Source of the DNA: Haliscomenobacter hydrossis DSM 1100
GTDB lineage: Bacteria > Bacteroidota > Bacteroidia > Chitinophagales > Saprospiraceae
Reading direction: 5' to 3'
DNA length: 64,000 nt
NCBI RefSeq assembly: GCF_000212735.1
Contig: NC_015510.1
Coordinates: 6,945,001-7,009,000 of the forward strand
In this document: positions 14,810-54,949 of the stretch, piece by piece
How positions within the stretch are numbered: the first letter of the stretch is position 1
How the letters are laid out: the number at the start of each line of letters is the position of its first letter
Program-made: the position numbers and the translations under genes
The notes under the pieces: model-generated
Seen by the model: the letters and a program-made list of their open reading frames with translations, nothing else
Database searches by the model: none
What the model was told of the DNA's origin: nothing

Positions 14810-14946
14810 CACCCGCCTGCGGCGGAAATTTATCAAGATAATTTCACCACGGATTCCACAGATTTTCACAGATTTTTGGTCGTATCCATGAAATTTGTGA
14901 AAATCTGTGGAATCCGTGGTGAAAAAAATCCGCCGCAGGCGGGGTG
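14810..14946. repeat. long intergenic hairpin, element A (intact reference copy)
   Basis: Outer arms 14810-14826 and 14929-14946 carry the tag CCCGCCTGCGGCGGA and its complement. Inner arms 14842-14875 and 14891-14924 pair over 34 bp with a single mismatch, around a loop of about 15 bases. It lies just beyond the 3' end of the DUF1343 gene. It is nearly the same sequence as element B at 52855, which is split by a group II intron. AATCTG followed by TGGAATCC at 14902-14915 is the matching unoccupied intron site. Confidence 0.93.
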
Positions 14947-43308: not shown

Positions 43309-43383
43309 AAAAATTCACCACGATTAACACAGATGAACACAGATACTTAATGCATTGTAATCTGTGTTAATCGTGGTGAAAAC
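43309..43383. repeat. long intergenic hairpin, element E
   Basis: Arms 43314-43333 and 43361-43380 are perfect 20-bp complements. They contain the CACCACGATTAACACAGAT-type sequence related to the inner arms of A and B. It lies 7 bases past the cytochrome c stop, so it may also terminate transcription. AATCTG-TG at 43359-43366 resembles the intron target site. Confidence 0.9.
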
Positions 43384-52852: not shown

Positions 52853-53361
52853 CTCCCCGCCTGCGGCGGAGATGGATAAAGATAATTTCACCACAGATTT
52901 CACAGATTTTCACAGATTTTTTGCCATATCCCTGAAATTTGTGAAAATCTGGTGCGCCACGAGGCGTGCGGTAAATATAAAATAAAACCTATGTGGATGC
53001 AAGAACCACACGAGCCAAGATGCCGATCAGCTTGAAGGAGGTGCGATTGTTGTGGAGGAAACGAAATGACAAGAGCTCGCACTAACGAGATGGATAAGCT
53101 GCATTAGTTAGGCCTCGTTACACAGTTGGTAGTGGTCAGTCTGCCAGATTGGATGAAACCTGCCACCCCAATGGAAGCATCGGCAAAGTGCACAAAGGGG
53201 GCTACCCGGGGTAAAATAATGTTGCGTGTCCATCAAAGGTGCCGCATGAACGTGGGAGACCCTAACGGAGGGATATCCAACCCTGCCGAGGGAGTCGGAG
53301 ATGCCCATATTAGTGCTGATCCCCGAAAAGGTAAAAGCGGGAGGAGCGAAGGGGCATTACT

Positions 53362-54777
53362 ATGAACAAAACTTGCAAAATGGAAGACCAGTCAAAATTG
53401 AGAAACAAGTATCATCAGAAAGACGGAGCGGAGGGAGAACTGCCACTATTCGGGAAGAAGAAATGGGAGATGAGCGATGCGGAAAGGGTATTTTCGTTAC
53501 AATGCAAGCTATACCAAAAAGCCAAGCAGGACAAGGGGTATAAGTTTTACGTGCTATACGACAAGGTGTTTCAAAAACATATGTTGAGCGTTGCGTGGAA
53601 GGCAGTAAAAGCCAACCAAGGCTCCCCCGGCATAGACGGGATCAGCATAAATGATATTGAGCAAGGCGGCGTGGAGAACTATTTGGAGGAACTAGGGGAA
53701 GAACTAAGGACGAAACGCTACCGGGCGCAAGCAGTAAAACGGGTAATGATCCCGAAAGCGAACGGAGGAGAACGGCCATTAGGGATACCGACAGTTAGAG
53801 ACCGGATAGTACAGACAGCATGTAAACTACTAATAGAACCGATCTTTGAAGCGGACTTTGAGGAAAGTTCCTATGGGTTCCGGCCAGAACGCAGTTCTGG
53901 GGATGCACTAGGAGCGATCAAGGGTTATCTACAGGAAGGGAAGAGTGAAGTATTGGATGCGGACTTGAGTAAATACTTTGATACGATACCACACGATAAA
54001 CTGCTGATTGGGCTAAAAGAGCGGATCAGTGACGGACGGATATTGGACTTAATCGGTCAATGGTTGAAAGCGCCGATATACGAGGATGGACAGTTTAAAG
54101 GGGGTAAGAAGAACAAAGTAGGGACACCACAAGGGGGCGTGATCTCGCCCTTACTGGCCAATATATACCTGAACCTATTAGATCGGATCGTGAACAATCC
54201 GAAGAGTTTGTTTTACCAAGGTGGAGTGAAGATAGTACGGTATGCAGATGATTTTGTGTTAATGGGCAAACAGATCGGAGAACAGGTGAAGGAGCAGCTC
54301 AAAAGCTTGCTAAGTCGAATGGGATTAAGCTTGAATGAGCAGAAAACCCGAACGGTTGAAGCAAAAGCGGAGAGCTTTGACTTTTTAGGGTTCACCATCC
54401 GCTACGACAAGGATTTATGGGATCGTAACAAACGCTACTGGAACATCATTCCAAGTCAGAAATCGGAGCAAAAGATCCGAGACAAGATTGATACATATCT
54501 TGAAGCACATGGTCACTACAAGGGAGAACAAGTGAGCGAAGACCTGAATAAGCTATTACGGGGATGGTTGAACTACTTTGACATCAAAGGGGTGAGCTAT
54601 CCAGCGGTGAGCAAAAGACGGTTACGGCACTACCTGCAAGAGCGACTGAACCGTTACTATAACCGCAAGAGTCAACGGAAGTGTAGGCTTTATGGACAAA
54701 GAGCCTTTGAGGCATTAGTCGAAAAGTATGGACTAATCGACCCGACGAAATACACTTCCGGAGGAGTTCGCCTGTGA
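53362..54777 (+). CDS. ltrA: group II intron reverse transcriptase/maturase
   Basis: The 471-residue protein has reverse-transcriptase blocks RPLGIPTVRDRIVQTACKLL, YGFRPERSSGDALGAI, DADLSKYFDTIPHDKL, GTPQGGVISPLLANIYLN and the catalytic VRYADDFVL. The maturase domain X follows (LNKLLRGWLNYFDIKGVSY ... RYYNRKSQRKCRLYG). No HNH endonuclease follows, as in intron classes that prime from nascent strands. The ATG at 53362 has a GGAGCGAAGGGG purine tract upstream. The gene lies in intron domain IV. Confidence 0.95.
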   Translation: MNKTCKMEDQSKLRNKYHQKDGAEGELPLFGKKKWEMSDAERVFSLQCKLYQKAKQDKGYKFYVLYDKVFQKHMLSVAWKAVKANQGSPGIDGISINDIEQGGVENYLEELGEELRTKRYRAQAVKRVMIPKANGGERPLGIPTVRDRIVQTACKLLIEPIFEADFEESSYGFRPERSSGDALGAIKGYLQEGKSEVLDADLSKYFDTIPHDKLLIGLKERISDGRILDLIGQWLKAPIYEDGQFKGGKKNKVGTPQGGVISPLLANIYLNLLDRIVNNPKSLFYQGGVKIVRYADDFVLMGKQIGEQVKEQLKSLLSRMGLSLNEQKTRTVEAKAESFDFLGFTIRYDKDLWDRNKRYWNIIPSQKSEQKIRDKIDTYLEAHGHYKGEQVSEDLNKLLRGWLNYFDIKGVSYPAVSKRRLRHYLQERLNRYYNRKSQRKCRLYGQRAFEALVEKYGLIDPTKYTSGGVRL

Positions 54778-54801
54778 AAGCTCATGAAGAAGTTCATAGG
54801 A

Positions 54802-54876
54802 AAGCCGTATGCGGGAAAACCGCACGTACGGATTGACGAGGGGGAGAAGCGGCAGCGCCGCTTCTCTCTACTCTAC
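54802..54876 (+). ncRNA. group II intron domains V and VI
   Basis: Domain V (about 54802-54834) has the AGCCGTATGCGG ... CCGCACGTACGG stem with its AGC triad and two-base bulge. Domain VI is the hairpin GAGAAGCGGC-AGC-GCCGCTTCTC, followed by the probable branch A at 54870 and the 3' splice site after CTAC. Confidence 0.88.
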
Positions 54877-54949
54877 TGGAATCCGTGGTGAAAAATAAAT
54901 CCGCCGCAGGCGGGTGCTAAACTTTTACGGTAGATTAAGTGAAGGGAAT

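Follow-up and report, generated by a model that had tools for sequence, protein, structure and literature searches.

A group II intron of 1,925 bp occupies positions 52952-54876, on the plus strand, of the window, by which we mean the whole 64,000-nucleotide stretch of Haliscomenobacter hydrossis DSM 1100 analysed here; the parent contig is 8,371,686 bp long and the genome 8.77 Mb. The insert starts with GTGCG, ends with CTAC and is flanked by the exons ...GAAAATCTG|TGGAATCC... It encodes a reverse transcriptase/maturase of 471 aa (53362-54777, plus strand; TIGR04416, 384 bits) in which no endonuclease domain was detected, RVT_1 and GIIM being the sole Pfam families found in the ORF at E <= 0.001. 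A PADLOC scan returned general reverse transcriptase similarity. Domains V and VI follow at 54800-54876 on the same strand (RF00029, 47.9 bits, gathering score 40), and a candidate branch-point adenosine at 54870, position -7 from the 3' end, forms a single-base bulge in the domain VI fold. The domain I match to Rfam group-II-D1D4-4 reaches 36 bits, under the gathering score of 49. The insert is clean relative to element A, an unoccupied copy of the host repeat at 14810-14946 that reads AAAATCTGTGGAATCC without interruption. On sequence grounds, the domain V/VI match, the reverse transcriptase/maturase and the uninterrupted element A confirm the insert as a group II intron, in agreement with a preliminary description that had proposed a clean 1,925-base group II insert running from GTGCG to AC. 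That description also took the occupied repeat to equal element A outside the insert, which is too strong: it is the same repeat but not an identical one, with ACGGATTCC in element A versus ACAGATTTC in the occupied copy, and the loop also differs.

The host repeat is a long hairpin. Its left part (52855-52951) comprises an outer arm, CCCGCCTGCGGCGG, an inner arm of CACAGAT units, a loop and the start of the right arm; its right part lies at 54877-54914, where the 3' exon (54877-54893, plus strand) is the remainder of the right inner arm (TGGAATCCGTGGTGAAA). Another unoccupied two-unit site lies on the minus strand of the window at 43315-43344. Within domain I, EBS1 (CAGATT, 53145-53150, plus strand) is the exact complement of IBS1 (AATCTG, 52946-52951, plus strand), so that all six of the last 5' exon bases pair, as had been proposed. 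The EBS2 core (CAC, 53121-53123, plus strand) faces an IBS2 core (GTG, 52941-52943, plus strand) in the preceding repeat unit, and a candidate EBS3 (A) lies at 53214 on the plus strand.

Eleven domain I sequences give a consensus fold with which these assignments can be compared; 55 of its 106 pairs show one or more two-sided changes. EBS1 falls in a terminal loop of this covariation-supported fold, where the preliminary description had looked for it, while the EBS2 core occupies an internal loop and the EBS3 candidate is left unpaired; in the single-sequence minimum-energy fold most of EBS1 is paired. Over 11 intron types, 61 of 66 EBS1-IBS1 positions pair when G-U is included, against a shuffled mean of 49.6, and 14 of 100,000 shuffles reach 61, relatedness between the introns being ignored. 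The pairs include CAGATT/AATCTG in the window intron, CGGAGT/ACTCCG in L064, CAAAGA/TCTTTG in L065, CAAAGG/CCTTTG in L068 and CAGCGG/CCGCTG in L095; pairing is weaker in L067, L069 and L070 (5/6 each) and in L079 (4/6). Left out of this test were L111 and L075 (truncated), L066 (no 5' exon), L082, L083 and L088 (too divergent for alignment) and L019 (same genome); alignment A1 is without L068 and L069, which have stop codons, and without L073 and L075. EBS1 thus covaries with IBS1, and in the relatives it follows the repeat variant present in the exon.

The columns for EBS2 and EBS3 were picked after the sites had been seen. When the spacing to the EBS1 target is left free, the 3-nt EBS2 core covaries with exon GTG, GCG, GAG or ATG in 32 of 33 pairs (24 of 20,000 shuffles are as good, relatedness ignored); at fixed spacing the signal is weak, with 13 of 33 pairs and 2,757 of 100,000 shuffles as good. 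Eight of the 12 combinations of segment and pairing rule showed no excess with free spacing, and neither did longer segments. The EBS3 candidate, picked as the top-scoring alignment column, is Watson-Crick paired with the first 3' exon base in eight of nine cases (L070 is the exception), and five further columns reach 7/9.

Genome-wide figures were obtained from genome searches and from 60 sampled 20-kb stretches, with some overlap in a small number of cases among the stretches or with the window. The genome search found 11 intron copies, of which eight are full length, two are split and one is without an ORF. Five of the full-length copies are 0-3 bases apart and the remaining three differ from those by 31-57; the 471-aa ORF is intact in seven of the eight, the exception being L007. 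Near-identical copies with intact ORFs would speak for recent activity. Both split copies (L017 and L018) are interrupted inside the reverse transcriptase gene by an insert of ~1.19 kb that, in a scan of L017 only, encodes HTH_32 and DDE_3 proteins, and which we take to be an IS630-type element. The ORF-less intron (L019, 501-1201) is 701 bp long and matches the window intron at 89% identity over its first 466 nt and at 100% over its last 116 nt; it looks chimeric, which suggests conversion or mobilisation in trans. A lone palindrome resembling domain VI (L020, ~400-650; C1:4228249-4228281) lies in the same repeat as the introns; it is similar to the 33 nt at the intron's 3' end with a mirror-image extension added, and is possibly a truncated insertion. 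The copies sit between long ORFs, as judged from lists of ORFs of at least 110 aa that extend 1.5 kb around eight copies and 0.5 kb around the other three. Support for the proposed safe, intergenic homing sites comes from these lists, and the insertions may be harmless to the host. Viral contigs yielded just distant relatives of the intron, at 51% identity or less, and all plasmid sequences among the at least 5,000 matches listed were below 60% identity, the first listed at 50.7%.

All 11 copies have a 5' exon that ends in ATCTG and a 3' exon that starts with TG, and by eye an ATCTGTG-like unit lies directly upstream of the cut in every one of them. The unit recurs with a period of 10 bp: the pattern ATCTGTGNNNATCTGTG occurs 119 + 114 times in the genome and its reversed control pattern not at all, and the sampled 1.264 Mb contains AATCTGTG 82 times, in 27 cases with a tandem unit upstream. 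The ATCTGTGNNNATCTGTG pattern is nearly private to this genome: of 59 related genomes, three have a single copy each and 56, four congeners among them, have none. With the flanks joined, the cut lies inside a stem in eight copies, where upstream partners pair with 11-12 of the 12 preceding bases and with 7-8 of the 8 following ones; L007 has the cut only partly in a stem, and in L003 and L006 no fold-back arm pairing across the cut was found when 130 nt upstream and 45 nt downstream were folded. Because these two copies have no such stem, the target seems to be the sequence of the tandem unit rather than the hairpin. Hence, the proposal that the exon-binding sequence recognises the arm of a repeated hairpin holds for the repeat, a multicopy element occupied by 11/11 copies, with EBS1-IBS1 covariation and the consensus fold in its favour, and less well for the hairpin. 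Likewise, AATCTG|TG is the insertion site at ten of 11 copies (TATCTG|TG at L001), as had been expected, and placement in a hairpin arm is not general. CTYCGYG pairs are about as dense in the genome as ATCTGTG pairs (32 vs 28 in 1.2 Mb), and no copy uses them.

Related introns were recovered in other bacteria, with matches in 19 of 398 genomes in a family search and in 18 of 395 in a phylum search, the window's genome being counted in both, and 44 related loci were taken from named genome contigs. A two-unit rule (TYYG at the cut and G-not-G-G one unit upstream), written after the sites had been seen, fits 13 of 15 relatives' insertion sites and 0.18% of random positions. These 15 loci have an intron 5' end of the GTGCGCCACGAG or GTGCG(C/T)CAGGA type, or one base off it (L075). 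Left out of the count were the Bacillota loci L086, L087, L092 and L094, which have another start and 5' exons that do not end in TYYG, and other loci with no recognisable junction or with the same site twice (L108 = L064, L109 = L065). Of the two that do not fit, L098 has half of the pattern, its second unit not being at the right spacing, and L095 has none of it and no recognisable repeat. The site variants are CTTTG|TG, CTCCG|CG, ATCTG|CG, ATCTG|TG and CTTCG, not every locus having a 3' exon. In the congener G199, with an intron at CTTTG, the CTYYGYG pair pattern has 34 matches, and CTTTGTG is found in 24 of the 29 listed. The same pattern has 106 matches in G107, with an intron at CTCCG, and only three in G390 (CTCCG|CG); abundance of the matching repeat is therefore supported for some hosts only.

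The site type is shared by bins of Planctomycetota (L068, L083) and Nitrospirota (L082), with the caveat that metagenome contigs, when short, may be mis-binned. In a reverse transcriptase tree, the window intron and 12 others are grouped with support of 100/99, and L081, L082, L083, L084 and L222 join at 90/88; the tree is without L068, L069, L079, L088, L091 and L093, reads single stops as X and contains no named class references. By eye, three distant Bacillus/Paenibacillus relatives (L086, L087 and L094) start with GCGTGCCC and lie just after terminator-like hairpins with T runs. Three congener loci (L119, L130 and L132) each consist, also by eye, of an isolated domain V/VI fragment preceded by unrelated sequence, the pattern that 5' truncation on insertion would leave.

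We consider the introns to be endonuclease-less mobile group II introns with IIB-like exon recognition that retrohome at replication forks into interspersed intergenic repeats, a reading to which we assign a probability of about 0.85. After splicing, the excised RNA would find two neighbouring repeat units (GTG..ATCTG|TG) through EBS1, the EBS2 core and probably EBS3, and would reverse-splice into this two-unit site. The target would most likely be single-stranded DNA at the fork, in the lagging-strand template, with a nascent strand as primer, since the reverse transcriptase has no second-strand nuclease of its own. A mostly palindromic, multicopy repeat usually offers targets on both strands, so that one of them would face the lagging side. 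Relatives elsewhere would follow the same plan, their EBS sequences being fitted to other variants of the repeat.

The orientation of the copies, which along with the relatives' other repeat variants was absent from the preliminary description, is uniform with respect to a replication origin near 5.3 Mb: all seven copies at 0.15-3.63 Mb are on the minus strand and all four at 5.92-8.12 Mb on the plus strand (two-sided chance 0.001). Strict sites elsewhere have the introns' orientation in 31 of 70 cases (Fisher p = 0.0005 versus the introns, some of the sites being clustered), and at six of eight palindromic sites the strand not used still has a good two-unit target. We infer the origin from the cumulative GC skew, with its minimum near 5.3 Mb, from rpoB (5.78 Mb, plus) and rplD (6.01 Mb, plus) and from the agreement of five of six sampled tRNAs, one of them lying close enough to base 1 to leave its side in doubt. 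Given such an origin, every intron points in the direction of fork movement, which probably places them all in the lagging-strand template; the strand of the 0.15-Mb copy, near the terminus side, is the least certain. Clusters of DnaA boxes marked no origin, gene direction in the sampled stretches was mixed, and 16S rRNA, sought with the Rfam family and a universal 16S word, gave no information on the direction of replication. An origin at dnaA (base 544) would turn the same 11/11 into leading-strand templates, with the same intron and target and the nascent leading strand as primer. Such was the first reading of the orientation, and it was dropped on rplD and rpoB. It can appeal to dnaA lying near base 1 and to a change in GC skew near 0-0.4 Mb, but dnaA appears to lie toward the terminus side of the skew, far from the inferred origin, rpoB and rplD would oppose replication head-on, the leading strand would be C-rich and the tRNAs favour the other origin; we consider it improbable, though the strongest of the alternatives.

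Somewhat less probable still is recognition of the folded hairpin by an intron of a group IIC-like type, base pairing being secondary. The stem around the cut in eight of 11 copies would suit it, as would the position of the three Bacillus/Paenibacillus relatives after terminator-like hairpins and the ranking of PDB chains, in which the GsI-IIC reverse transcriptase (188 bits) precedes 6me0 (162) and LtrA (137). Hairpin recognition is demoted because no stem spans the cut in L003 or L006; where there is a stem, the cut is inside it. Moreover, EBS1 pairs over 6 bp and covaries, and the EBS2 core covaries with free spacing, whereas PMC7923331 describes IIC introns with EBS1 pairing of 3-4 bp and without evidence for an EBS2. 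Recombination between repeats, or duplication of them, as the main mode of spread instead of retrohoming might explain the repeat sequence shared between sites, ~100 nt in L004, L018 and L019 by eye, and the chimeric look of L019. The flanks, however, differ beyond the repeat (130 nt on each side, by eye), the insertion phase is identical at every copy, five copies are just 0-3 bases apart and the orientation is uniform, which makes this very unlikely. Retrohoming at forks into the two-unit site is thus our preferred reading.

Precedents exist in kind: introns in insertion sequences, introns at terminators or attC, and insertion sequences in REPs. By analogy, the closest mechanism would be that of RmInt1 and RmInt2. 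Both are class D introns of Sinorhizobium. RmInt1 (IIB3) has a reverse transcriptase without an endonuclease domain, a bias to the lagging-strand template and a repeated target, ISRm2011-2 (PMC8914252, PMC5894124); RmInt2 targets both inverted repeats of ISRm17, which leaves at least one target on the lagging-strand template (PMC5894124, PMC8914252). As described there, both share with the present intron several copies in one genome and a repeated target, and RmInt1 shares the lack of a detected endonuclease domain. Unlike their insertion-sequence targets, the target here is a short, mostly palindromic repeat of tandem units, with EBS sequences matched to its variants in relatives. For IIC and IIC-attC introns, the reported insertion sites are inverted repeats, terminators or attC (PMC7923331). 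In that account the introns have an upstream stem-loop, a 3-4-bp EBS1 and no known EBS2, whereas here we find a 6-bp EBS1, an EBS2 core, a candidate EBS3 and two of 11 sites without a stem; the window intron lacks the IIC combination of 3-4 bp of EBS1 pairing with a stem-loop upstream of the cut. The TeI introns of Thermosynechococcus fall into families told apart by EBS1/2/3 and have proliferated in one genome, one family at ISEL1 (PMC2882425); their targets, as reported, are mixed, in contrast to the one repeat family here. Insertion sequences confined to REPs have also been reported (ISPpu9 7/7, ISPpu10 7/7, ISPa11 6/6, ISPsy8 5/5), along with a P. putida group II intron at REPs in two of nine cases (PMC1525189). 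The former are DNA transposons, whereas the insertion proposed here would be RNA-guided, with 11/11 copies in the repeat. New here are this completeness, a short repeat as the target in relatives of several phyla and an EBS1 that follows the repeat variant. In openly licensed PubMed Central literature, no title or abstract opening was found on group II introns in an ATCTGTG-type repeat, and the literal sequence of the repeat led to no relevant paper in open literature, its one match being unrelated by title (fish environmental DNA).

A wider proposition, which we regard as evenly balanced, is that the whole intron lineage, in Bacteroidota and in the Planctomycetota and Nitrospirota bins, inhabits a single widespread family of hairpin repeats, with a period of ~10 bp, that is apparently undescribed. 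EBS1, EBS2 and EBS3 would be retuned to the variant of each host, intron and repeat would diversify together, and the palindrome would give a lagging-strand target in nearly every copy. The system supplies EBS/IBS pairs pre-matched by evolution and draws attention to intergenic repeats of one family, seen near introns in several phyla, and an RNA-guided retroelement could proliferate in this way by addressing a repeat, not a gene. Strand choice by endonuclease-less introns could also be studied here in a natural system with its own internal control, in that six of eight palindromic sites keep a good target on the other strand, yet all 11 copies have one orientation relative to the fork. Other families of spaced heptamers are abundant in the 60 sampled stretches as well, with CGAACCC every 8, ATCAACC every 10 and AAAAGTG every 14 bases.
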